This document shows positions 3,899 through 21,251 of a stretch of DNA of 64,000 nt, one piece after another (the stretch's first letter is position 1; every line of letters starts with the position of its first letter). The DNA is from Effrenium voratum (lineage: Eukaryota > Sar > Dinophyceae > Suessiales > Symbiodiniaceae). Location: contig CAUJNA010001724.1 of assembly GCA_963377175.1 (NCBI GenBank), positions 486,001 to 550,000 on the forward strand. The letters are read 5' to 3'. The position numbers and the translations under genes were made by a program. The notes beneath the pieces were generated by a model, which saw only the letters and a list, made by a program, of their open reading frames with translations, did no database searches and was not told where the DNA came from.

Positions 3899-5479
3899 TC
3901 AAGACCTGAGCCCGAGCAAATCCAGAAAGCGAAGAAAGAAGCTCTGCGTTTTTTTTGAATTTTTGGGGGGACACAAAAAAACTTGCCACAATAGAGAACC
4001 CGTAAAACAGTCACAGGACTCTGGATTAGGAAAAAGTTTTCTACAATAGCGAGCACTATTACTAAAGGAGGTCCAACATTAGTGGGCAGACAACAAGTCG
4101 TGGCTGTGGGGGGCATTGGTAAGTTGTTGCCGGTGATGGAGGCGTTACTTCGATGATGTTGGCGTTTAGGTTTTGTGTGGTTTTGGGTTGTGTTTATTTG
4201 TAGTAGGGGGCTGCAAGGAACAGTTTTTTTGGCAAGTCCACATCAGTTTTGGTTAAGTTTCGTTTGCGAGCCCTTTCAGCTAAAACAACAGAATTCCGCA
4301 GCCTGCAATCCTTCAAAGGCAGACATGTGGCGTGTGTTCTCCTCTTGGCAATCTCGTGAACTTGTTCCTTGCCCCATATTGGCACCCACGTGGGTGCCGC
4401 GGTTTTCAAAGGCCAATTTACCGAGGTTTCCGGACCAGGGATACACCTTAAAAAAATGCGGTGCATGTAGAATCCCTTTATCAAGGGTTCAACTCAAGCC
4501 ACCAATCCAAAAAGCGTCACCTGCCTGAAAATTACTATCCTTTGAGGAAGCTTGTTCATTCAGGTCAGACTTATGGCCTCAGGCTGATGTTGACAGCTGC
4601 GTGCAGCTGGCGCTCTACTGCCCATGCTCTCAGAAGTCTTTTGCTCGCAGACCTTCTGGGCTAAGGCAATCCTTAATCCTTGGGCGGGGCTGGTTCCTAA
4701 GGATTTCAAGAAGTTGAGCCAATCTGGAAGCAGATTCTGAAGAGGTTCCCTTGGTTTTCACCAATCGTTCATGCGGCCTTAGAAAGCAGCCCGTTGGTTC
4801 CCAAAGGATTTGGTCTCCGTGGTTGCTCGGGACGTGATTCGGATGTAAGCCTGACTTCCCAGAGTCCGTGTGGGAGGTTTCCTTCGGGGCGGTTGTTGGG
4901 CTGGCTGCGATTGCCAGAGGAATTCTCCGGCCTTGACATGGGTGTTGGTCATCCATGTATCCAGAGAGGCCGGCAATTAGTCATGAACCACTTGAGGAAA
5001 AAACGGTAGGGCACGAAATCAGTTCGGAATGGATTTTTGCAATCCGGGTTTCTTCAGGCCCTCGATTCCATAGAAATTGACTGGGCGACCTGCTTCTAGC
5101 TCAGGCAACAGGATTTGCCAAGTTACTAAGTTCTAGGATTTGATTTCCCCATTCTTTTCCGCCATGGTTCTTTTCCACCATGGTTCTTTTCCAAAACCCG
5201 GATCCGTTTCCCTGAGTTTTTTAAGGTTTCCTGAAAAGAAACACGGATCCTCGGGAAGAACCATGGTTCTGAAACAAAACCCCGCTGATTCCTTCTGGGT
5301 TTTTGATTTGTTTCTCAAAAGAAGGACAGAACGGAAATAGAAGCTTCCCCTAGACAAGTGGTTGGCTTATTGCATGCCCCGAAGGTGTGCCACTCTCTCA
5401 GGTGCCAGCGTGGCAGTGCAACGCACCGGTCCAGGTGCGACGCCTCGACTTTTCAGTCGGGTGCCAAACATATAGTTCT

Positions 5480-8517: not shown

Positions 8518-8522
8518 GATTG
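8518..8522 (+). repeat. Target-site duplication (5') of the copia element
   Basis: GATTG directly precedes the 5' LTR and recurs directly after the 3' LTR at 21247-21251. A 5-bp duplication is what a copia-type integrase makes. Confidence 0.9.
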
Positions 8523-8684
8523 TGTAGTTTGTAACGTGATGCATTTATCAACCATGTAAAACCCCAATGCATGAATGTCTCACTTGCGCAGTCTCATCAT
8601 TACGACTGCGTATGGCTCAAGGAAAAAGCGCGCTGAGTACAGGGTTCATTTGTGACCCTTCCCGGTTGTTTAACCTGTTCTATA
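8523..8684 (+). repeat. 5' LTR, 162 bp
   Basis: Runs from TGTAGTTTG to GTTCTATA, with imperfect terminal inversion TGTAG/CTATA. It is identical to 21085-21246 at every base. It contains TGGCTCAAG at 8613-8621, the last 9 bases of the spliced leader, which may be chance. Confidence 0.95.
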
Positions 8685-8697
8685 GGTTATCAGCCGC
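8685..8697 (+). promoter_or_regulatory. Candidate primer-binding site
   Basis: GGTTATCAGCCGC follows the LTR directly. It resembles the TGGTATCAG-type sites that copia elements use to pair with initiator methionine tRNA, with one inserted T. Position is right; the tRNA match is inferred. Confidence 0.4.
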
Positions 8698-8726
8698 AAG
8701 CGGCTCTTTGTACAGAGTTGTACGCC

Positions 8727-10439
8727 ATGGATGGCGACCCTGGACTACCCCATACCGAGGCGCGTCCCACACCTGATGAGCCCGCAGGCGATGAAGACGC
8801 CTCGCAATATGAACCGACTAGTCGAGCAAACTCCCAAGTGGCCAGGGAGCTCATCAGGAAGGGACAGGCACTGAGCAGTCAGGGCCCCGAATCACTTCGA
8901 TCTCGGAGTGACCGTGGGAGGACTGGGCGGTCTGGTGCTCGATCTCCTTCACCTGTTGGATCAGATCGGCATCGGCATGGTGACATCGTCATGTACGACC
9001 CCCAGACCGATCTCGCAAGGGGAAACCCTATGCCACAGTCCATGAATCAGTTCAACCAACATGTTGCAAACGTCCACCTCGATCCTTCGATGACGATCAA
9101 CCAGGACGTGACGAACTATCAGCAGATCAACGCTACCCAGAACAATGCCCAATTCAACCAGTTCGTGAATCAGGACACCGGTCCCATGGTCGCCCAGATG
9201 GCGGAGGCAAGGCATGGTGAGATTATTGCCGGACTTCAAAGCCAATCGGAGGCCATGAGACGCGAGATTCAAATGAATGCGGAGCAGCGTGTGAACACCA
9301 TGAAATCGGAAAGAGAAGCCGAGATGAAGTACCAAAACGCCATGAACACGATCAGCGAGCAGGAGAAGCAGATCAGGGAGCTAAGGGCTATGGTCGAGCA
9401 GATGATGCAAAATCAGCAGCAACCGCCTGCTCAACCTGCTCCAGCCCCTGCGCCTCCCGTTCAGCAGGCACCAGCTACCCCCTTGGCTATCCCGACCGTT
9501 CCTTTGGCTGCATCTCCACCCGGACTTTCGAATGCTTCCTCGCACAGTTGGACGAAGGTCGGGAGCGACCCCTACGGCAAAGACGGATCCGTTCCCGCCG
9601 GGGCCGTGGACGATGCTGCTACCGGAGACGGTTGGCCTTGCGATGACGGTGATGGTGGAAATGACAAGGACAAGAAAAAGAAGAAGAAGAAGAAAAAGAA
9701 GAAGGACCGTAGCCGACGCCGGCGACGAGATCCATCATCTTCTCCCTCGTCATCTTCGTCATCAACTTCTACTGCATCGGATGAATCCTTTCGACGAAAG
9801 CTACTGAAGCACTTAGGTAATTCGAGCGATCCGACAGCGGAACGCGTTCGTGTAAAGGAGGGTGACAGAATTCAGATTCCCCGATTCCCGAAGCCCGAAC
9901 AGTACCGTAATTGGAGGATCAAAGTTAGGGATGCTGTTGTTGCTACTTCCGACCAACCCGAAAAGGCATTTGAGTGGATTGAGGCAACTTGGATCCCAGG
10001 TCAAACTGTTGAAGTCCTTCGTGATTCAGGAATGTTTGTCCATCTTGATGCAAAGCTGGCATCGGCGTTGACGAATATTTTGGAGGGCGACCTCGCGCGG
10101 CAAGTCGACATTTTCAAAGAACAAGAAGCAAAGGAGAAACGCTACGCGAGGGGGCGCCAAATTCTTTTGATGATTCACAAGCACTTCAGCACGAACATCA
10201 AACATGGTGCAATTTACGACTTTGAGGACTTGCTCTCTGTCCAGCTCATCAACGAGGACCTCAAGAACTTCATGACAAGATGGGACACGGTCATCGCTGG
10301 AATGGGCAATGAGCAGAATGAGAAGACCCTTGAAGCGCTGTTCCACCGCCAGATTCGAAAGTTTCGCCTCTCAGTCATGATCTCAATGAGTATGAGCGGG
10401 CTGAGGAAGGGACGGAAAAGCACTCCTATAAATTCCTGA
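8727..10439 (+). CDS. gag: Gag (nucleocapsid polyprotein)
   Basis: About 570 aa from the ATG at 8727, which has purine-rich context GCCATGG and lies 43 bp after the LTR; an upstream GTG in the LTR is less likely. Order seen: charged disordered N-terminus; Q/N-rich stretch (about aa 100-150); coiled coil with heptads (about aa 158-232); proline/alanine-rich linker; a run of 12 lysines (about aa 315) and an arginine block, then a serine run, likely RNA-binding; and an alpha-helical capsid-like domain (about aa 375-570) with the FPKPEQYRNWRIKVRDAV motif of copia gag. The ORF ends 30-35 codons early: the conserved continuation (EYERAEEGTEKHSYKFL) is in the -1 frame from about 10376. Expected role: forms the particle that packages element RNA. 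Confidence 0.85.
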   Translation: MDGDPGLPHTEARPTPDEPAGDEDASQYEPTSRANSQVARELIRKGQALSSQGPESLRSRSDRGRTGRSGARSPSPVGSDRHRHGDIVMYDPQTDLARGNPMPQSMNQFNQHVANVHLDPSMTINQDVTNYQQINATQNNAQFNQFVNQDTGPMVAQMAEARHGEIIAGLQSQSEAMRREIQMNAEQRVNTMKSEREAEMKYQNAMNTISEQEKQIRELRAMVEQMMQNQQQPPAQPAPAPAPPVQQAPATPLAIPTVPLAASPPGLSNASSHSWTKVGSDPYGKDGSVPAGAVDDAATGDGWPCDDGDGGNDKDKKKKKKKKKKKDRSRRRRRDPSSSPSSSSSSTSTASDESFRRKLLKHLGNSSDPTAERVRVKEGDRIQIPRFPKPEQYRNWRIKVRDAVVATSDQPEKAFEWIEATWIPGQTVEVLRDSGMFVHLDAKLASALTNILEGDLARQVDIFKEQEAKEKRYARGRQILLMIHKHFSTNIKHGAIYDFEDLLSVQLINEDLKNFMTRWDTVIAGMGNEQNEKTLEALFHRQIRKFRLSVMISMSMSGLRKGRKSTPINS

Positions 10440-13400
10440 TTGACGCATCGAGGAATTATTTGGAGCGTAAGAGGCTTGTTCACATGCGGGATGCTATGTC
10501 AAGCAACACAACTGGACGTGGCAGGACTCCATCGAACAACCCTGCAGTTCCTGGAATCCCCAAGGGTGTATGTGTGAAATTTCAAACTGGCCAGTGCACC
10601 TATGGTTCAGACTGCCGATTCGAACATGTTAAGGCACCGAAAGGTAAGGGGAAAGGCAAGAAGGGCGGATCTAGACCCCAGACGCCAAGGAAGTATCGTT
10701 CGCAGAGTCCTCCTGGTTCGAAGCCCCAGGTGTGCAAGTTCTTCAAAGCGAACAGATGTGAGAGAGGGAAAGATTGCCCATGGCAGCACCCCGCAACTTC
10801 CAAGGCAGCTCCAGCCCCAAAGGCCGAGAAGACCACTAGTGGAGACACCCCCAAGACATCGCCGAGAGAGAAAAAGAAGAAGAAGAAGGGAAGCAGGCCT
10901 TCTTCTCAAGATTCGAAAGACTCGAAGGGTTCTCAGTCCCTCAAGTCTCCGCGATCGTCAAAAGGCAGCAATGCTGCGGTGTGCCTCCTCCAGGCGATGG
11001 TGTGCGCCGCGACCCTCGACTCGGTCGCCTCGCATCCTTGCCTGCCTAGTGTGACTCACGATGTTTTCCAGAGTATGCCATGTATCAAGAAGTGCGTGCA
11101 ATTCTCTGATTACCCATCTATTTCGAACTATGAGACTGACGGCGAGCTTTGGCCCTACACTGCCTCGTCGAGAAGGTTTGCACACGAGTTTCCTGTTGAT
11201 TATGTTCCGAAGTTCGATGAGAGAGCTGTCTCTGACGCAACTCTTATCGGCACCATGCATGAAGCTATGATGAAGGATTTGCTCAAAGGCACGAAGACTC
11301 CTTGCAAATTTCAATGCGACTCTGATTTCGGCTGTGATTCCTGCATCCCCGCAGGCCTAACGGCCGAGCCAGAGAAGCCCGAGACCTCCCCCAAAAAGGG
11401 GAAAGCTGCTGTTGCTCGTATGACAATGGATTCTTCTCACATTCCGTGGATCGCGGATACAGGAGCTTCCCAGGATTTGCTGTCGGGAACCGATGCGGAG
11501 GTGGGGTGTATTTACGAATCGTCTCAACCTCTGAAATTTTCCACAGCCAATGGGAATATTATCGGTACCAAGCAGGCCAGGGTCAAGATCCAACAGACCG
11601 ATAGTGTTGTTCGGCCATATGTTCTTGACAAGGCTCCATCCGTGTTATCCGTGGGTATGAGATGCCTCAGGGACGGATATGATTTCGTTTGGAGAGCCCA
11701 CAGCAGACCTTATTTCCGACTTCCGGATGGTACACGTATCAAGCTCGAGGTCAAAGACAATGTTCCATTCATTCCCCCAGCAACTCAGAATGCTGTTCCA
11801 GCTTTGTCACAGAGCATTCCAAAGGTTACATCATTACCATCAGCTCCCATCGAAATTGAGGATGAAGTTCTAGTCATTGACGAGGAACCAGAAGCTGTTG
11901 AAGAGGTGCTTGTGACCAATGAGGATGATGGGGATGAATTGGGGAACGATGATTTCTTGCTTGAGGACACCATTAGCCAACCGGAAGGTGAGGTCATTCA
12001 AGAGTGCCATGACATTCCCTCCGAAGATGCGCCTAAGGTCATCGCTTCCGATTTTGTGTCTAAGCCTATTTTGAAGGACGCCCCTCGCGAACGCGGTGAA
12101 GCAGCTTTGCGTGATGAGGCGACCTCACTCCAGCACTTGATGTGTCACACTCCCAAGAACCCCTTTTGCGAGACTTGTAACAGGGCGAAGATGTACAAAT
12201 ATCCATCAAAACAAAAGGGAGGTTCCACTCAAGTCGAGGCCAAGAAGTTTGGTGATCACCTTACGGCGGACCATCTTATCACATCAGATGATCGTGAAAT
12301 CGGCATTGATCAATCTAGAGTTGCACTTGTGGTTCGAGATGTTGCCACTGATTTCCGTTATGTTTACCCAGCAGCACGGAAAACCTCTCATCAATGTGTG
12401 ATGGCATTCAAGCACTTTGTCCGCACCGGGGAAACCGTGAACGTGTTTTACAGTGATCGGGCTCCTGAACTTGTGAAAGCGGCGGATCAATTGGAATGGA
12501 AGCATGTTCAAAGTACCAACTACATTTCCAAAACTAATGCTATTGCTGAGAGGAACGTCAGGGCGATTATCGAGGGCACGAGGACCAACCTGGAACAAGC
12601 TGGTTTGCATCATTCGTATTGGCCACATGCGGCCAAACACTATTGCATGGCGCATAACATCACGGACCACCCAGATTATCATTCACCATGGAAGGTACGT
12701 TTTGGAGAAGATTTTCCCGGACCATATTTGCCCTTTGGTTGTCAAGTCAACTTTTGGACTGGCCCGAGGAATCGACCCAACAAGCCTTTGAAGTTTGAAC
12801 CTACTTCCAGGGCTGGAATATTTCTGGGGTATCCCATCCATCCTGACTTTCTTTGGCGTCACGAATTTCTCGTTGTTCCTTTGCGAGGTTTGATGGAGAA
12901 GGACTATGACCAACCTATTGCTCCTTTGAGAGTAAATCAGATCAAATGTCCGGATGGTGAATTCTCTTTTCCAATGGTCGAACGGCACTTGTTGCACATG
13001 AATGGCGTAATGCCGGGGCTTGAATACGCTCCTGAAACGCCCGATCCAGCTGCATTGGATGCGCCGCTCTTGGAGGAGGATTTGCCGGCAGAGATGCCAG
13101 GCCAGGATGACATCGATGATCAGGAACTCGCTGAAAACCTCGGAAAGCTGATCAAAGATTCCCCCAAAAAGGGGCCCGCATCGGAAGAAATGGTCAAAGT
13201 CATTGATTTGAAGACCAGCAAGGACACCTTTGTTCCCAAAGATGGAGGTGCTCATTACGATGCGGGGGGTGTGAAAGCCCGAAGGTATTCAGGATCGAGC
13301 AAACCCGACAGTATTCCACCTTTTCTTTGGAAAACAATGTCAACCAAGCAAAGGAGACTTGCCATTATTAAGGATGAGCGAGAGAAGGCTCGCAAGGCTT

Positions 13401-15499
13401 TCCCCGATGAGCCCGTCTCCGAGGACCCGGAAGCTTCTTCTTCCAAAGCTAGGCCGGCGACCACTGCAGGATTGGAAGATGAATTTTCAAGCATTCCTCT
13501 TATGCCTGTTGCACCTTGCGTTGGGAACCGCTCTAAAGAGGAGACCGTTGAGGACGTGCTGGATGTTGTAGTTTTGCCTGCACTTTCTGCGAATCCCGAA
13601 ATTGGTCAACATCGTTGCAAAGTTCTCCAAGCTCACCTTCACCCCGTTATTCATGCTATGGTTGCTAGACCGGTGGGGCGGAAGGAGATTGAAAGCAATG
13701 CTGATGCTCAAAAGTCTATCGACGTGGAGTGGCACAACCTTGAGAGCAAGGGCGCGTGGGATTACAACACTGTGCGTGAGTGGTCGCAGGTGGTCAAAGA
13801 AGCTAAGGGGAGAAGTGAAAAGGTCCATGTTGGCAAAATCTTTGAAATCTGTGTTGAGAAAGGGAGTGAACTTCAAAAGGGAAACCCTCTTCGCAAGTTT
13901 AAGGGAAGGACTGTGTTTCAGGGGAACAACGTAAAAGACGAAAATGCTGAGCAAGCTTTATTCGCTGAACTTGGATCGGCCCCTTCCACCATGGAAGCTG
14001 CCAAAGCCATCGATGCTTATGGAGCTATGCCTGGTAACTGCACCCAACAATCCGATGGGCGACAGGCATATACGCAGGCATTATACAAGGGAATCAAGAC
14101 ATGGGTACGCCTCCCAAAGTATCGCTGGCCGAAAGGTTGGGCCTCAAAGTATAGCGATCCAGTGGTGCAGCTCATTCTTGCTCTTTACGGCCACCCGGAT
14201 TCGGGGGGTCTATGGGAGAAGCACTGTGAAGATATTCTCTTGTCCCTTGGATTCCGTCTTGTTTACCCTGGAGCCTGGCCTTCAGTTTTCTGGCATCCGA
14301 AACTTCGACTCCTGCTCGCAGTGTACGTCGACGACTTCAAGATGTCGGGACCGGTTCAGAATGTTGCAAAAGGTTGGGAACTCATTTCTTCCAAGATTGA
14401 CATGGACCCACCTTCGGCTGTTGGTAGGTACCTCGGATGTGAGCATGTTGTCACGGAGAAGGTTCAACTTTCGCCTGAACATCATCCTTTCGCTCATGTT
14501 TTCAATCATGACCTGGAGGATCCATCCGACAAGAATGCAGCCGCAGCTCGCCGAACTCAGGATTACTGGGAACACTATCCAGAACATGGCGTGGTTGTTT
14601 GTCAACACGAGCAGCCAAGGCGCAAATTTCGCCGCACGCCTAACGGTGTTGCCAAAGAAATTGGGTTGGGCGGGACGCGGTACACAGAGTGCAGTCCATG
14701 TTTTGATAAAGATGGTGCTGCTCAGCAGTATTGGCATTTCGATGAAGACGATGATCAGATTCAGACTGTTCCTTTTCTTTGGGTTGGGACCACGTATTTC
14801 TTTCATGAAAACGTTGGAAATGCCCGCCTAGCGGCTGCGGCCGTGAAGAAGCTCAGGGACAAGACGTCCGCCAAGAAAGCCAATCGAGCCAAAGGTTTTT
14901 CGTATATCGATGAACTGTTTCAGCACCAACCTTGCATGGACAAGCCCGTCACGATGGTTACCTATGACATGACCGGATTCCTTAAACAATGCCTTGACAG
15001 GTATGTTGAGCTTGCGGGGGGCAATGTTCAGTTCAAGAAGGTTTCCACTCCATTTCAGGATGACCGCATTGCAAGACCCACCAAAGACGATACGGAGAAG
15101 AAGGGTATTCTTCAACCCATCGCCTCCAAAATCCTCATGAAGGTCCTGTTTGCTGCGCGGATGGCCCGTTTTGATCTCTTGAGAGCGACCCAGGGACTGG
15201 CTTCTCGCGTTACCAAGTGGTCCGTCGACTGCGACCAGGCGCTCTTCCGGTTAATGTGCTATATCCATACCACAGTCGATCGGAAGATGCACGGTTTCGT
15301 TGGTGACCCCTCATCACGAACCCGACTATGGTTGTTTGCGGACTCGGATCATGCTGGCGAACATGACTCCCGCAGTACATCAGGGTGTTTTCTTGCATTG
15401 ATTGGCCCTAATACCTTCTATCCTCTGACTGCATTTTCCAAAAAGCAGACTTCCACTGCGATGTCGTCCACGGAAGGAAGCCGAGGTGATTGCAGCTAA
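10334..15499 (+). CDS. pol: Pol: CCCH fingers, protease, integrase, reverse transcriptase, RNase H (N-terminal part)
   Basis: Open from the stop at 10331 in the -1 frame relative to gag, with the gag C-terminus read in this frame. Two CCCH zinc fingers, C-x7-C-x5-C-x3-H, at 10571-10627 and 10733-10789 replace the usual CCHC knuckle. Retropepsin motif DTGA with the Asp codon at 11456. Integrase zinc-binding H-x3-H-x6-C-x2-C near 12133-12180, catalytic Asp at 12269, Asp at 12455, Glu at 12548 (30 residues between the last two, shorter than the common 35). Copia RT from about 13720, with YVDD at 14324-14335. RNase H begins with FADSDHAG at about 15338. The frame then breaks after MSSTE at about 15472, where GAAG is duplicated, and stops at 15497-15499. 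Functions: polyprotein cleavage, cDNA synthesis and integration. Confidence 0.9.
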   Translation, partial: SAVPPPDSKVSPLSHDLNEYERAEEGTEKHSYKFLIDASRNYLERKRLVHMRDAMSSNTTGRGRTPSNNPAVPGIPKGVCVKFQTGQCTYGSDCRFEHVKAPKGKGKGKKGGSRPQTPRKYRSQSPPGSKPQVCKFFKANRCERGKDCPWQHPATSKAAPAPKAEKTTSGDTPKTSPREKKKKKKGSRPSSQDSKDSKGSQSLKSPRSSKGSNAAVCLLQAMVCAATLDSVASHPCLPSVTHDVFQSMPCIKKCVQFSDYPSISNYETDGELWPYTASSRRFAHEFPVDYVPKFDERAVSDATLIGTMHEAMMKDLLKGTKTPCKFQCDSDFGCDSCIPAGLTAEPEKPETSPKKGKAAVARMTMDSSHIPWIADTGASQDLLSGTDAEVGCIYESSQPLKFSTANGNIIGTKQARVKIQQTDSVVRPYVLDKAPSVLSVGMRCLRDGYDFVWRAHSRPYFRLPDGTRIKLEVKDNVPFIPPATQNAVPALSQSIPKVTSLPSAPIEIEDEVLVIDEEPEAVEEVLVTNEDDGDELGNDDFLLEDTISQPEGEVIQECHDIPSEDAPKVIASDFVSKPILKDAPRERGEAALRDEATSLQHLMCHTPKNPFCETCNRAKMYKYPSKQKGGSTQVEAKKFGDHLTADHLITSDDREIGIDQSRVALVVRDVATDFRYVYPAARKTSHQCVMAFKHFVRTGETVNVFYSDRAPELVKAADQLEWKHVQSTNYISKTNAIAERNVRAIIEGTRTNLEQAGLHHSYWPHAAKHYCMAHNITDHPDYHSPWKVRFGEDFPGPYLPFGCQVNFWTGPRNRPNKPLKFEPTSRAGIFLGYPIHPDFLWRHEFLVVPLRGLMEKDYDQPIAPLRVNQIKCPDGEFSFPMVERHLLHMNGVMPGLEYAPETPDPAALDAPLLEEDLPAEMPGQDDIDDQELAENLGKLIKDSPKKGPASEEMVKVIDLKTSKDTFVPKDGGAHYDAGGVKARRYSGSSKPDSIPPFLWKTMSTKQRRLAIIKDEREKARKAFPDEPVSEDPEASSSKARPATTAGLEDEFSSIPLMPVAPCVGNRSKEETVEDVLDVVVLPALSANPEIGQHRCKVLQAHLHPVIHAMVARPVGRKEIESNADAQKSIDVEWHNLESKGAWDYNTVREWSQVVKEAKGRSEKVHVGKIFEICVEKGSELQKGNPLRKFKGRTVFQGNNVKDENAEQALFAELGSAPSTMEAAKAIDAYGAMPGNCTQQSDGRQAYTQALYKGIKTWVRLPKYRWPKGWASKYSDPVVQLILALYGHPDSGGLWEKHCEDILLSLGFRLVYPGAWPSVFWHPKLRLLLAVYVDDFKMSGPVQNVAKGWELISSKIDMDPPSAVGRYLGCEHVVTEKVQLSPEHHPFAHVFNHDLEDPSDKNAAAARRTQDYWEHYPEHGVVVCQHEQPRRKFRRTPNGVAKEIGLGGTRYTECSPCFDKDGAAQQYWHFDEDDDQIQTVPFLWVGTTYFFHENVGNARLAAAAVKKLRDKTSAKKANRAKGFSYIDELFQHQPCMDKPVTMVTYDMTGFLKQCLDRYVELAGGNVQFKKVSTPFQDDRIARPTKDDTEKKGILQPIASKILMKVLFAARMARFDLLRATQGLASRVTKWSVDCDQALFRLMCYIHTTVDRKMHGFVGDPSSRTRLWLFADSDHAGEHDSRSTSGCFLALIGPNTFYPLTAFSKKQTSTAMSSTEGSRGDCS

Positions 15500-15797
15500 T
15501 GTGGCATTGCGTGCTGTTGGACTTCCGTCTTCCTGCCTCTGGGAGATCATACAGTCGGCGGGGGGTGGTACAGAAAACCCAACATGCACTCTCACCCCAT
15601 CAAGAACTTCCGATTATTGGATCAACGACACGGTCAATGGATATATAGTCAGAGTCCACAATAAAAGAAGAACCCAGTTGTTTGTTCCATCGAACGACGA
15701 CTGCCCGGTTAGAACCGAGGCCTTGTCCAGCACCAGATACACGGTTCAACTCTTCAGCGATGGCAACATCAATCTCAAACCGACTCCGCATGGATAG
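15473..15797 (+). pseudogene. Pol, out-of-frame segment of RNase H and its insertion
   Basis: Continues the RNase H reading (AEVIAANVALRAVGLPSS) in the +1 frame after the 4-bp GAAG duplication at about 15472. It then carries an insertion of about 80 residues with HNKRRTQLF and a CPV motif, which I recall as typical of dinoflagellate copia elements. At about 15778 the homologous reading returns to the original pol frame (TDSAWIGKTYFF), a -1 step. The two changes roughly cancel, so only this segment is out of frame. Confidence 0.6.
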
Positions 15798-18787
15798 GCA
15801 AGACGTATTTCTTCATGCGGGGGGCCGGCGAGGCCGATCTCGAAATCGAGGCCAAAGAGATCAGGGACAACCTTACCGACTTTGAGTATGTTGGGGACGA
15901 ACGTGTTGGTAGCGAGGGTGTGACTCTTATCAACAATGGTTCTTTCGAAGGCATTTTTCTCGAGGACAACCAGGCCACTATCCGTATTCTTGAAAGTGGT
16001 AGATCTCCGGCCTTTCGCCATACCGACAAGACCCAACGTGTTAATCTTGCTTGGTTAGCGGAGCAATTCAGGCGGAAACACTACAAGCTTACACACGTGT
16101 CCACCGAACTTCAGGCAGCAGATATTCTGACGAAGCCTTTCACAAATGCTGAGAAGTGGCAGGGAGGGCTCAAACTCATGAATATTGCTAGCAAAATGGA
16201 TGTCCCAGGTATGCCGGCTGCTGTGTCGCCACGCCTGGAGAAATCCGAGGCCAGGAATACGGGGGGTTCCCCTAATCGTATTCTGGTTGAAGTTTGCTGT
16301 TCACACGATTCCAAGCTTGGTGATACTTCGCGCCGACCCGCTTTTGGCTGCCACGTGATTCGGATTACCCAGGACGATGATATTCTTTCCCATGCTACTC
16401 GTAAGCGTGTCGTTGACGAGGTGAAGCATATCCGCTCTATCGGCAACAAGGGTTCTATTCCTGTTTTACTATGGGCAAGTATCCCTTGTACTGGCGGAAC
16501 TGCTTGGTCTCATGTTAACATGAATCATGACACGGCGAAAGAGAAGGTGAAGCGACATCGATCCATTTACAAAAGAATTTGGTCTGCCTTCATGGACCTC
16601 GTGAACTCAATGGAATTTGCCAAACCGTTGATTGCTATTGAATGGCCCAGGAGTTGCACTTACTGGGACGATAAGGCCGTTGACAAGTTCGTTATTCGAA
16701 ACAACATGACTCCTGTTAAGTTTGATGGTTGTGCTGTTGGTGTCAAAACTACCGATGGGGTTCCTATGAAGAAACCATGGACTGTTAAGACCAACATGCA
16801 TTGCCTCCACAATTACCTTGATGGAAGAGTATGTTCTTGCACTGTCCAACATGCTGAGGGAAGGGGACAAAATCTCAAGAATACAGAATCCTACACATAC
16901 ATCATGACTGACTTGGTTCACAAGGCTTTTGCTTATGCAGTGTCGGTTCGAGAGAAGGTTGCTGAAACACGTATACTTGTCGCGACCATGGCTGAAGCAC
17001 TGCCCGTGGAGAAGGCCTTGAAGACGGTACGCTCGGCGTTCTCCGAGAGGCACTACAAAGATGTACCGCTTGCTCGAGTTGACTACGGCTCGGACTACAT
17101 CCTGCACGATGGGAAGGTGAAGGCCGAGGTCATCCCCGACGAGCTGCGCGTCGCCAACCGAGAGGCTTGGTCAGACATGTTCCGTGATGCGGCAACTCAA
17201 TCATTCATCGTCAAGGACGTGAACTCCGGTGTCGACCTTGCCAAGATGAGTGAACGTACCGATGCGCTGGCTCTCGCCAAGAACGCCATGTCATCGTTGA
17301 CAGGTACTGCGGGAATTCTCAAAGAGGCTCCGGCTGAGGCTTTCGACATCCTCTTCTGCCCGGGGAAACCCGCGGTCAACTATCTGTTTTTCGGCGACTC
17401 CTTCAATGCGTTGGTCAAAGATGGAGCAAAGACAGATGTTGGCACCATCCTCAAGGAGAATAAGCGGACGCTCTTTGGGCACAAGCACGAGGTCTGGTCC
17501 GAAATGACATGGGGCAAAGGACTAGCAGAATCTCTTGACGCTGCTGAGCGGGCAATGCTAAAGCTCGCCGAAAGGCCTGAGCCCCGGCCGTACGTCATCG
17601 TGATCTCGTGGTCCGGGAATGACGTTGTCGGTCGTAACGGTTACATCGACAACCCCGCCGCCCTAGCGGGCTGGGCCACTGATTCCGAGGCAAAGCGGAA
17701 GGCTGCGATGGACATCATCGAAAGGAATGCCCGAGCGGTGATGACTGTCCGTGATCGGCTACGCCATATTGCTTTTCGGGAAGACGTCGTCCAGGTCGTC
17801 CTCATCGTGCCGAGGGACTATGAGACGTATGGACTGAGTGAATCTTACAAGACTCAGATGGACGGGCATGCTCGTTTGTTGCATGGTTCCGCGGGAATCA
17901 CCGTCCTCGACCCCCAGACTCTCATATCCAACACGTCTCGAGCTGACCGCATCCACACCGATGACACCGAGCGGAACAGGAAGCACTACATCAATTATTA
18001 TGTGGCCGCCGCCAAGCTCGGGTACTGCATTGGCCAAATCAACCGCTTCGAAATGGCGATGAATTGGTACCGCCTCGAAAGGGAATACATGAACATTGAC
18101 ACATCTATCCCGATCGTTGGCGCTACACCCCAGGAAACTGGCGGTCCGGCAATTGCAAAGAACCCTGAGGACCCTTTCGACAATGAGGTCCGTGAGAGGG
18201 AGTTGGAGGCGATCAACGAAATCGCCGCGCAAGAGCCGAAGCGCGAGATTTTCCTGGAGACTGAAAAGGAGGCAAACCCCCTCTACCCCCTTGACACCGT
18301 CAAGGAGGAAGCAAAGATCTTACAGATGATGCAACCCGACATTCACGCGGCGACCGTCAGCGGCCTCAACGATGTGATTGATTGGTCTTCTTCTTCGGAT
18401 GAGGAGGACCTGATCAGCTTCGACCTGCCCCCTGGCTCTCAGCCTAAGGTCAGCCGGCCGAAAGGCCAGGCCGTTGAGGTTGCCGCAGTGGATCCGAATG
18501 ACATTGGTGAGGACGGCCAAATCAAGCTCATCCTCACTTCCAAGCGGAAAAGTCATAACAAAATGACTGCAGCTCTCAGTGCTGCGACACCAAAGGTGAA
18601 ATCAAAGGCAATGCCAATGCAGAGATCCGTGGCCCGGAGATCACCCCCAAGGCGAAGGCAGTTTCCAAAGCTGCTGGAAAGGTCGGGGAGACCCGTGGCC
18701 AGGCTGCTGAACCCAAGAGGGAGTGGATCAAGTGCTCAGGAATCAAGATTCCCCAGATCCAGAACTATGGCAGAAGGACGTTCTTGA
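15713..18787 (+). CDS. Pol C-terminus: RNase H end, methyltransferase-like and SGNH-hydrolase-like domains
   Basis: Same frame as pol; the first ATG is at 15815. Order: RNase H C-terminus with LEDNQATI and ADILTKPF (about 15958-16140), where ordinary copia pol ends. Next a Rossmann-like domain (about 16270-16930): ILVEVCCSHDSKLG, then SIPCTGG, then IEWPRSCTYW, recalling a cytosine methyltransferase with a PC motif; Symbiodinium copia elements are known to carry DNMT-like domains. Then an SGNH/GDSL-like fold: FGDSFN with Ser at 17399, SGND with Asn at 17618, and DRIH with Asp at 17945 and His at 17954 (residues 529, 602, 711 and 714 from 15815), the block I, III and V residues at normal spacing. 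The tail is acidic, then basic and low-complexity; the last 60 codons are probably out of frame. Substrates are unknown. Confidence 0.75.
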   Translation, partial: NRGLVQHQIHGSTLQRWQHQSQTDSAWIGKTYFFMRGAGEADLEIEAKEIRDNLTDFEYVGDERVGSEGVTLINNGSFEGIFLEDNQATIRILESGRSPAFRHTDKTQRVNLAWLAEQFRRKHYKLTHVSTELQAADILTKPFTNAEKWQGGLKLMNIASKMDVPGMPAAVSPRLEKSEARNTGGSPNRILVEVCCSHDSKLGDTSRRPAFGCHVIRITQDDDILSHATRKRVVDEVKHIRSIGNKGSIPVLLWASIPCTGGTAWSHVNMNHDTAKEKVKRHRSIYKRIWSAFMDLVNSMEFAKPLIAIEWPRSCTYWDDKAVDKFVIRNNMTPVKFDGCAVGVKTTDGVPMKKPWTVKTNMHCLHNYLDGRVCSCTVQHAEGRGQNLKNTESYTYIMTDLVHKAFAYAVSVREKVAETRILVATMAEALPVEKALKTVRSAFSERHYKDVPLARVDYGSDYILHDGKVKAEVIPDELRVANREAWSDMFRDAATQSFIVKDVNSGVDLAKMSERTDALALAKNAMSSLTGTAGILKEAPAEAFDILFCPGKPAVNYLFFGDSFNALVKDGAKTDVGTILKENKRTLFGHKHEVWSEMTWGKGLAESLDAAERAMLKLAERPEPRPYVIVISWSGNDVVGRNGYIDNPAALAGWATDSEAKRKAAMDIIERNARAVMTVRDRLRHIAFREDVVQVVLIVPRDYETYGLSESYKTQMDGHARLLHGSAGITVLDPQTLISNTSRADRIHTDDTERNRKHYINYYVAAAKLGYCIGQINRFEMAMNWYRLEREYMNIDTSIPIVGATPQETGGPAIAKNPEDPFDNEVRERELEAINEIAAQEPKREIFLETEKEANPLYPLDTVKEEAKILQMMQPDIHAATVSGLNDVIDWSSSSDEEDLISFDLPPGSQPKVSRPKGQAVEVAAVDPNDIGEDGQIKLILTSKRKSHNKMTAALSAATPKVKSKAMPMQRSVARRSPPRRRQFPKLLERSGRPVARLLNPRGSGSSAQESRFPRSRTMAEGRS

Positions 18788-20802
18788 GCAAGAAGGTGTC
18801 GTATTTGGTTCGCGGACATGCCCACGAACATGCGACGCGATCCATCCCTGAGATCAATCTCAAGGACAACTCCTTCGACTACGCAGCCGTCGCCAAATGG
18901 ATCCAACGACGATATGACTGGAACTGCACCCAATACACTCTTCTTCAGGCCACGTCCACATCGAATCGGTTCGAGGTCTATGTCGAGTACGCGCCGGCCG
19001 GGCAGCAATGGAACGGGCTCAGTTTCATGCCGCTACGCATTCGCGCGTTCACCGGCCACAACGATTGGGTGACCGAGGCCAGCGGCTTTGACAATATTCC
19101 TGGAGATCCCATTGCAATGGATGCCAATTACACCATTGAGCACGCAAAGAAGGGTGTGCGACCGGGCTTCTGCAAAGACTTCTCGGACGCACGCCGAAAG
19201 GCGCTGCCCAAAATCGCCTACCACACGTGCAACATGCAGAATTTCTTTGACATCATCTACATGGGCATCTTTCCGGGCGGAATGGGAGACCGGCAAACCT
19301 CGCGTGGTCACGCCTACCTAACGGTAGTGCCTCCTTGGGACAGGCATGGCCGGAAGGCGGGTGGTGCGCGTGCTGACCGACCCATCAACATCGCCGTCGA
19401 TGTGGAAGCCCTGGTGACGGAGGATTGGATCACGAACAAGGTCCTCATTTACGCCTACGACGCTGAATGTGCAAAGTTTATCTGGTCTAACCGGATGTAT
19501 GTCAGCGTCAGACGGAATTACCAGGACAGCATCAAGAAGTATCGGGAAGAGACCCAGAAGGGCGTTGTCGGGACCCCAGTGCTGGAATCGTTCATGGCGA
19601 AGGCAGAGAAGGAGTGTAAGCTCTATTACAAACAGTGGGCCCCGACGGCGTGCCGCGACATGACGCGGCCCCACCGCATTGGCAATGTGACGAAGGTCAG
19701 GGGCATTTACGATGAGAACCTCCCGAAGGAAGAGCAGGTCGCGCTTGAATTCGAGACCGCCCGCTATGGCCTCTACAGAAACTGGGCCCGAGCTGTGACG
19801 CAGCAGCCCGGGGAAACCCGAGGCCGGAGTGGTTTGTGGCAGGACTTGGATCCCAACAAGCAGAAGTCGACCAACTGGCGCTTCGCGGAGGTCATGCACA
19901 TCCCCGACGTTGAGTGCCCGCGCTGCAAAATCCTCATCCCGGTCGGCACCATCAACTGCTTCCAGTGTGACCGTCTCATGGAGCGCATGCCCGATATCAA
20001 GAAAATAGCCAGGGTCGTCCGATTGCAGGAGATGGCCAACAGCTTGGGCGTGCCGCTTTCCATGGACCAGGTTGAGACTCAGATCTTGACGCAGAGGAAG
20101 GATGCGCGAGGGGATCGAAGCGCAAGAGGGGGCCTCGGGATCATGAAGGACATTGCCAAGAAAGCAGTTCTTCGCAACAAGGAGTACGCCACGTTGTACG
20201 AGAGGCTGATCAATGACCCCTTCTATGCCTACACTGCCGCGCGGGGAGACCTGACGCCGTCCGCCCTCGAGTTTATCGAGAAGGTGGCACGATGCATTAT
20301 TCCGAGTTTCGGGAGAACCAAGGAAATGATCCAAGGAAGCGTTGCTGTGCCGAAATATCACGCACGGCTAACGCTGGTGCCGCCAACGGAGGACGTGCAG
20401 GAGGTCGATCCGAAGGACGTGTATGTGGTGCATGGTGGCAGATTTCTGGAACCAGAACAATTTGCTGCATTGTATGGAAGCCTTGACAAGAGCAACCGCT
20501 ACCCCGTGATGGGCTGGACCCAGGATTTCTCGTCTGTGGGAGACCCCGAAATGGTATTGGTTGAGTTGCTTTGCTTCGTCGAAGAGGAGATCCCCGGCAT
20601 CGAGATCCCTGGACGAGCCACCCCGCTCCCTGCAGTTGTCGGTGTGACGCGCAAGCCCATTCCGCAGCTCCGGGAGACCGGTGGCCAATGGCAAGATCGT
20701 TGGAGCCAGTCGTACTGGGGAAGCTGGGGCCAATCCTGGGACTCATGGTGGTCTGATGATCAGCGCCCGTGGAAGAGCTCCCGCAATTGGGATTGGCGAT
20801 GA
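18559..20802 (+). CDS. Tpt1/KptA-like RNA 2'-phosphotransferase with zinc ribbon
   Basis: Open frame overlapping the previous ORF by 229 bp in the -1 frame, with no ATG before the domain, so it was probably read as part of the polyprotein. Tpt1/KptA hallmarks in order, numbered from the TTG at 18784: SYLVRGHA (Arg10, the LRH position), NRFEVY (61-66, the KRFE-like motif), IRAFTGHN (86-93, the RAxxGH loop), AYHTCNMQNFFDIIYMGI (145-162, the HGT/GL segment), SRGHAYL (173-179, the RxHVHLS position) and INIAVDVEALV (201-211). The family moves an RNA 2'-phosphate to NAD+. A C-x2-C-x10-C-x2-C zinc ribbon lies near 19915-19968. The C-terminus (20690-20800) is rich in W, S, Q and R. The enzyme family is recognised; activity here is inferred. 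Confidence 0.75.
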   Translation, partial: QNDCSSQCCDTKGEIKGNANAEIRGPEITPKAKAVSKAAGKVGETRGQAAEPKREWIKCSGIKIPQIQNYGRRTFLSKKVSYLVRGHAHEHATRSIPEINLKDNSFDYAAVAKWIQRRYDWNCTQYTLLQATSTSNRFEVYVEYAPAGQQWNGLSFMPLRIRAFTGHNDWVTEASGFDNIPGDPIAMDANYTIEHAKKGVRPGFCKDFSDARRKALPKIAYHTCNMQNFFDIIYMGIFPGGMGDRQTSRGHAYLTVVPPWDRHGRKAGGARADRPINIAVDVEALVTEDWITNKVLIYAYDAECAKFIWSNRMYVSVRRNYQDSIKKYREETQKGVVGTPVLESFMAKAEKECKLYYKQWAPTACRDMTRPHRIGNVTKVRGIYDENLPKEEQVALEFETARYGLYRNWARAVTQQPGETRGRSGLWQDLDPNKQKSTNWRFAEVMHIPDVECPRCKILIPVGTINCFQCDRLMERMPDIKKIARVVRLQEMANSLGVPLSMDQVETQILTQRKDARGDRSARGGLGIMKDIAKKAVLRNKEYATLYERLINDPFYAYTAARGDLTPSALEFIEKVARCIIPSFGRTKEMIQGSVAVPKYHARLTLVPPTEDVQEVDPKDVYVVHGGRFLEPEQFAALYGSLDKSNRYPVMGWTQDFSSVGDPEMVLVELLCFVEEEIPGIEIPGRATPLPAVVGVTRKPIPQLRETGGQWQDRWSQSYWGSWGQSWDSWWSDDQRPWKSSRNWDWR

Positions 20803-21084
20803 ATGAGCGATCTCTTCAACAATATTTTCAATCTTCGGCTGACATCCATTTACATTTCAAATTCAATATTCATTATACTTCTCAATCCATGTTGGCCGAG
20901 GATCAATGTACAGTGCATGAGCACGCCTCGCGAGAGCGACGGTCAGTGGAGGCGGAAGACCTTAACTGCCGGTTGCTCGAATCCAAGTGCTTGTGTACTG
21001 CAAAAGGACTTCATGCCGATCGGGTTTCTTTGGTTGTTTTATCCCTTTCATTTGTCCTCCTGTTTCACATTCGGGCACGGGGGG
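20803..21084 (+). other. 3' untranslated region and polypurine tract of the copia element
   Basis: Non-coding gap between the last ORF and the 3' LTR. It ends with ACGGGGGG at 21077-21084, a candidate polypurine primer for plus-strand DNA. Confidence 0.55.
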
Positions 21085-21246
21085 TGTAGTTTGTAACGTG
21101 ATGCATTTATCAACCATGTAAAACCCCAATGCATGAATGTCTCACTTGCGCAGTCTCATCATTACGACTGCGTATGGCTCAAGGAAAAAGCGCGCTGAGT
21201 ACAGGGTTCATTTGTGACCCTTCCCGGTTGTTTAACCTGTTCTATA
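21085..21246 (+). repeat. 3' LTR, 162 bp
   Basis: Identical to the 5' LTR over all 162 bases. Followed by GATTG at 21247-21251. Confidence 0.95.
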
Positions 21247-21251
21247 GATTG
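21247..21251 (+). repeat. Target-site duplication (3') of the copia element
   Basis: GATTG, matching 8518-8522. The empty site would read CAAC-GATTG-CTTG. Confidence 0.9.

Follow-up and report, generated by a model that had tools for sequence, protein, structure and literature searches.

A copia-type retrotransposon lineage of Effrenium voratum with C5-methyltransferase-like, SGNH-hydrolase-like and Tpt1/KptA-like domains downstream of RNase H

Retrotransposons of the copia type are regarded as compact elements. A stretch of 64,000 nucleotides from the dinoflagellate Effrenium voratum (assembly GCA_963377175.1, contig CAUJNA010001724.1, positions 486,001 to 550,000), hereafter called the window, carries on its forward strand a copia-type long terminal repeat (LTR) element at positions 8523-21246 whose coding region continues far beyond RNase H. 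Two identical LTRs of 162 bp (8523-8684 and 21085-21246) enclose the element and the target-site duplication GATTG stands immediately outside them (8518-8522 and 21247-21251), so that LTR and duplication comparison proved the limits given in a preliminary description of this DNA to be exact. The block that follows RNase H on the same strand begins with a C5-methyltransferase-like domain at 16274-16939, assigned by predicted fold and motifs (SIPCT at 16478, EWP at 16640). It continues with an SGNH-hydrolase-like domain at 17357-18025, indicated by fold match, profile and motifs (GDSF at 17393, GND at 17615, DRIH at 17945), and with a Tpt1/KptA-like domain at 18781-19509 found by profile comparison. 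A zinc-ribbon motif CxxC-x10-CxxC (19915-19968), present also in the relative P0009, and a Trp-rich C-terminal tail (20710-20799) complete the block.

The upstream half of the element is read on the same strand. The first bases 3' of the 5' LTR are GGTTAT, as in Drosophila copia. A candidate primer-binding site of 20 bases beginning with GGTTATCAGCC (8685-8704) is the same bar one base across the 16 copies compared (16/16). The gag-like frame, designated by position, runs from the first ATG at 8727 to 10439, is broken near 10.36 kb in the window copy and matched no gag family in a Pfam scan. Retroelements frequently bear CCHC knuckles at the post-gag position; here two CCCH zinc fingers (10571-10789) stand directly 3' of gag, detected by Pfam PF18345 (E 5.3e-7) as two stretches of which the better lies at residues 38-56, the second finger being recognized by eye. 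Further downstream are an aspartic protease motif DTGA (11447-11479; weak Pfam gag-asp_proteas match, E 0.024), an integrase-like core with CxxC followed by D, D and E (12146-12562, motifs by eye), a reverse transcriptase core (14126-14446; Pfam RVT_2, E 1.5e-4) whose YVDD motif stands at 14324, and an RNase H region ending in ADILTKPF (15344-16141, motifs by eye, frame broken at about 15.49-15.8 kb). The integrase D, D and E residues (12248-12562) lie upstream of YVDD and RNase H, which by eye is the copia order. The RVT_2 match reaches 21.9 bits, under the curated cut-off of 31.6, and that of the relative P0013 40.2 bits, over it. A run of six G at 21079-21084, a candidate polypurine tract, adjoins the 3' LTR. 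No Rfam family and no tRNA matched when the window was scanned.

The genome scanned comprised 1,155,904,702 bases in 3,699 contigs. Copy numbers are lower bounds because each search scored only its best candidates (66 of 763, 40 of 233, 150 of 3272, 59 of 1175, 150 of 4524 and 142 of 481). Sixteen LTR pairs, the window copy included, could be formed from 40 LTR matches, the unpaired ones being set aside. An exact 5-bp duplication flanks 12 of the 16, among them the window copy (those without are C3180, C2889, C3058 and C1860), and the two LTRs are identical in 10. All four pieces of the block (methyltransferase-like, SGNH, Tpt1, C-terminal) occur in 15/15 of the other paired copies, with a lowest coverage of 221 of 258 residues; numerous independent insertions therefore have the block enclosed by their LTRs. 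Judged by the LTRs, some of these insertions are recent, and most are damaged. The preliminary description had held that the three domains belong to the element and had named copies devoid of them as the sign of the contrary: none was found among the 15 other LTR pairs of this genome, and its view is upheld by these copies together with a diverged second family.

Frame shifts interrupt the window copy at three places: around 10.36 kb, somewhere in the interval from about 15.49 to 15.8 kb, and around 18.6 kb. Its Tpt1 match measures 2016 nt against 2067 nt for most full-length matches, and 16 core residues after 19404 are gone from it, a region complete in P0001, P0002, P0003, P0005 and P0009. 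Intact frames exist elsewhere: three of the 73 Tpt1 matches, all three of the window family, lie in open frames of 4083 residues (frame length by genome search). A frame of 4089 residues holds the sister copy C2524, in which the Tpt1 frame is 68% identical. In the relative P0001 an early pol stretch is joined to the Tpt1 region, and it is probably an internally deleted element derived from a more diverged copy. Over the 10 flanking bases and first LTR bases that were compared, C1860 has the same 5' flank as C3180, whose 3' flank is that of C691; copies may have recombined, a segment may have been duplicated, or the assembly may be wrong here. Scans of viral contigs yielded no relatives, and a third protein search none beyond the earlier ones.

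The second family emerged from the methyltransferase search, where 45 of the 150 scored matches (best of 3,272 candidates) were only 45% identical. Its copy L069 contains, in a single frame, RNase H, the methyltransferase-like, SGNH and Tpt1 domains, the zinc ribbon and a Trp-rich tail similar to that of the window family; another copy, L070, agrees with it. Identity to the window family is 62% over a part of pol (622 columns), 45.5% for the methyltransferase, 27.9% for SGNH and 31.5% for Tpt1, and a search with the Tpt1 half gave 61 matches, nine of them in frames of 4204-4208 residues. Since the same domains occur in the same order, the block most simply predates the split of the two families, to judge from these sequences. 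The genome also holds ordinary Ty1/copia elements, whose copia-type LTR and integrase anatomy is general knowledge: frames of 1960 residues account for 21 of the 150 RVT_2 matches (best 150 of 4524 candidates). The one that was read likewise has an RVT_2-type reverse transcriptase followed by RNase H, but its frame stops just after RNase H, whereas the window lineage runs about 1550 residues further (16142-20799). Among relatives in the NCBI set, P0013 carries a related methyltransferase-like domain (28% identity) upstream of the reverse transcriptase instead of after RNase H, the place it occupies in P0012; the module may be mobile.

The sequence of the block appears to be maintained by selection. 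Compared with C2524, dN/dS is 0.063 for the methyltransferase, 0.137 for SGNH, 0.16 for the tail and 0.111 overall; at Tpt1 the synonymous sites are saturated (pS 0.81, pN 0.167). Pooled pN/pS for methyltransferase, SGNH, Tpt1 and tail is 0.12, 0.059, 0.071 and 0.133 in the window family (16, 18, 16 and 13 of 20 copies kept) and 0.085, 0.088, 0.040 and 0.106 in the second (7, 8, 8 and 8 of 8), copies with a stop in the match or coverage below 90% being left out. These pooled values, all far below 1, are descriptive, because the pairs have common ancestry and damaged copies do not enter them.

Homology of the third domain to Tpt1/KptA is firmly indicated by profile comparison. The window-family alignment scores against the KptA profile above shuffled alignments, the reversed alignment and ten other polyprotein pieces, so that chance or compositional similarity is rejected, and the second-family domain passes Pfam PF01885 (PTS_2-RNA) with 34.3 bits against a cut-off of 26 (E 3.1e-8). 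PF01885 remains below cut-off in two of seven window-family or sister relatives (P0005, 19.3 bits; P0003, 13.9 bits) and has no match in P0001, P0002, P0006, P0007, P0009 or the window frame; an NCBIfam scan was negative for Tpt1 in P0003, P0005, P0009 and the window frame. In sequence searches against solved structures, one of two window frames gave one chance match and the other none, alignments A3 and A1 gave one chance match each, and the second-family Tpt1 half gave weak matches only, including a tRNA 2'-phosphotransferase (E 0.75). The Tpt1 proposal of the preliminary description is accordingly firm as to homology. NAD-linked chemistry is plausible for the domain; since the Arg-His-Arg-Arg tetrad of the enzymes is not found in it, we file it as a Tpt1-like homologue and not as a 2'-phosphotransferase.

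The first domain is predicted to be C5-methyltransferase-like on the strength of a structural model that matches the C5 cytosine methyltransferase fold and of SIPCT and EWP, whose Pro-Cys and Glu are invariant in 6/6 sequences and which we take to be the catalytic motifs of this class. Pfam found no methyltransferase match in the window frame, nor in the relatives and the second family when these were scanned up to E 5; a Pfam survey would thus likely overlook such a domain in copia elements. As the family's sequence profile is not matched, the assignment is confined to a C5-methyltransferase-like fold. The methyltransferase suggested earlier stands in this form, but cap modification, proposed along with it, is unsupported because methyltransferases with this fold belong to the cytosine-C5 class. 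A possible zinc site is formed by C128, C153, C187 and H193 (A4 columns), which like the catalytic Cys are invariant in the six sequences.

The SGNH-hydrolase-like identity of the second domain, already suggested in the preliminary description, is moderately supported by model and sequence. Foldseek ranked EstL5 first for the predicted model (E 0.010, probability 0.97), with the SGNH esterase CrmE10 at E 0.28, and the profile scored 30.0 against TesA over 79 columns, with a shuffle maximum of 20.6. The catalytic S, G, N and H blocks of SGNH hydrolases, named in part in PMC5408684, are present in both families as GDS, WGxGL, GND and DxxH, P0010 having GGS instead of GDS. No Pfam match was obtained for this piece in the window frame, the relatives or the second family, and the VIA-align rows, which mainly cover model residues 16-249, take in little of it.

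Two further observations concern the dinoflagellate spliced leader. A 21-base full match to it lies at 1561-1581 of the window, about 90 bases upstream of an ATG; by itself it makes a dinoflagellate host very likely, and it is likely a relict heading a retrocopied host gene. The final nine bases of the leader, TGGCTCAAG, occur at LTR positions 91-99 (8613-8621 and 21175-21183), a match reached by 0.07% of 20,000 LTR shuffles in a post hoc test; if the element RNA is trans-spliced, R might begin there.

How could such a block serve a retrotransposon? At a probability of about 0.5, we propose that particles of the element carry the block with them and that it aids replication of the element by repairing or maturing RNA ends. 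The element protease would cut the polyprotein and the accessory pieces would enter the particle, where the Tpt1-like piece would act, with NAD+, on RNA that bears phosphates. In the simplest case it would strip the 2'-phosphates left by cleavage or ligation off the genomic RNA or the tRNA primer, allowing reverse transcriptase to copy or extend that RNA. The element's nucleic acid would be bound or methylated by the C5-methyltransferase fold, and membranes or partner proteins would be the sites where acyl groups are taken off by the SGNH domain. The wider picture of a lineage possessing its own NAD+-dependent RNA repair, nucleic-acid marking and acyl hydrolase within a gag-pol fusion of about 4,100 residues is put forward tentatively, as a possibility on the doubtful side.

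Several results weigh against a working repair kit. The window copy is unlikely to provide a functional block because its frame is broken. Only C3180 and C2889 among the 15 other paired copies read all four pieces in-frame and stop-free within pieces, and C3180 is broken between them, leaving open frames of 961 and 1249 residues. Individual window-family proteins score 14.0-43.6 against KptA in hhalign (window copy 32.7), the 14.0, no better than shuffles, being that of P0002, where the domain is incomplete. The KptA HMMER profile reaches at best E 0.0023 on these proteins, and the Tpt1 structure prediction was unusable (pLDDT 32.7). The link of the methyltransferase to Dcm is not seen by sequence profile (12.8 against a shuffle maximum of 20.0), and no tRNA pairing with the candidate primer site was found when a tRNA-arm pattern derived from it was scanned through the genome. 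The CthTpt1 tetrad consists of Arg18, His19, Arg68 and Arg121, and mutation of the equivalent His has a threefold effect on step 2, that of the first Arg a 710-fold one (PMC6333775). On our alignments the tetrad reads Arg-Gly-Arg-Arg in both families, with Gln for the first Arg in C3467, one of two second-family copies read (C546 has Arg), and the NAD motif HGT has become HTC, or HMC in P0005.

The same residues bear on an unlikely alternative, in which the Tpt1-like domain would be a counter-defence or protective ADP-ribosyltransferase that, instead of removing 2'-phosphates, would add ADP-ribose to host proteins or to the ends of RNA, while marks set by the methyltransferase-like fold would guard element DNA from silencing. 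Retention of the NAD-side His and Arg with loss of the RNA-side His fits this view, as do the viral ADP-ribosyltransferases engaged in host conflicts (PMC9503650) and the C5-methyltransferases of other Symbiodinium retrotransposons (PMC5890265). The equivalents of Arg18 and Arg68 are, however, kept in 4/5 and 5/5 rows, and strong purifying selection is more in keeping with a substrate that stays the same than with an arms race. It is similarly improbable that the domains are mainly structural, the Tpt1 winged-helix half binding RNA and the SGNH domain membrane, with weak or no catalysis. Such a role would accommodate the altered tetrad and a methyltransferase motif I that by eye differs from FxGxG, as that motif is generally given. 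Non-catalytic SGNH proteins are known, and binding to liposomes is described for the SGNH domain of a LINE (PMC3905857), yet here the catalytic S, N and H are retained across two families 28% identical, and the methyltransferase Pro-Cys and Glu are invariant over six sequences. We consider very unlikely that the block assists priming of the hemivirus type, the Tpt1-like domain clearing the phosphorylated 3' end of a half-tRNA cut in the anticodon arm. The GGTTAT start, as in Drosophila copia, speaks for it. Hemiviruses do prime with a half-tRNA (PMC1181622), but the genome offered no match to the tRNA-arm pattern, and Tpt1 enzymes ordinarily act on a 2'-phosphate inside the RNA, at a splice junction (PMC6333775). 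Capture of host-gene fragments by the window copy alone is refuted, the block being present in 15/15 other paired copies and the second family.

An element that answered to the wider picture above would copy RNA cut by its host. At 4083 or 4207 residues, the frames of this lineage are roughly twice as long as the 1960-residue frame of an ordinary copia element from this genome. The lineage would place a KptA homologue in a retrotransposon and a Pfam-invisible methyltransferase-like fold in copia, and would allow one to ask in a natural system whether damaged RNA ends restrict retrotransposition.

Known systems provide partial parallels. SymbioLINE-Dnmt, SymbioDIRS-Dnmt3 and KnitGypsy-Dnmt3 are dinoflagellate or charophyte retrotransposons that likewise carry a C5-methyltransferase, but they are of the LINE, DIRS and Gypsy types whereas the window element is a copia, and Symbiodinium Copia is stated to be without any DNMT domain (PMC5890265). 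Retroelement-encoded SGNH hydrolases also exist in the rotifer Vesta LTR elements (GDSL esterase, PMC5408684) and as the esterase of a CR1-type LINE (PMC3905857), with proposed roles in membrane targeting and particle assembly; unlike the present domain, these occupy a separate third frame or ORF1, outside any copia polyprotein, and the Vesta text makes no mention of Tpt1. A Beihai picorna-like virus similarly has KptA inside the polyprotein of an RNA-templated element, but the KptA polyproteins of that report belong to RNA viruses, and words on retrotransposition or retroelements are absent from its text (PMC9503650). The words copia and esterase are absent from a study of the accessory domains that retrotransposon polyproteins carry (PMC6338049). 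Compared with Tpt1/KptA itself, the element domain aligns over both lobes and keeps the last two Arg of the tetrad and the NAD-side His and Arg in 5/5 rows and the first Arg in 4/5, but has Gly for the tetrad His, HTC or HMC for HGT and inserts of tens of residues. The earlier statement that no described copia lineage with the SGNH and Tpt1 pair was known holds, also for the full set, as far as titles and the beginnings of abstracts extend, subscription journals lying mostly outside this coverage and the closest papers being covered in part. On the sources consulted, each kind of domain is known from retroelements or RNA viruses, and their combination within a copia element appears to be new.

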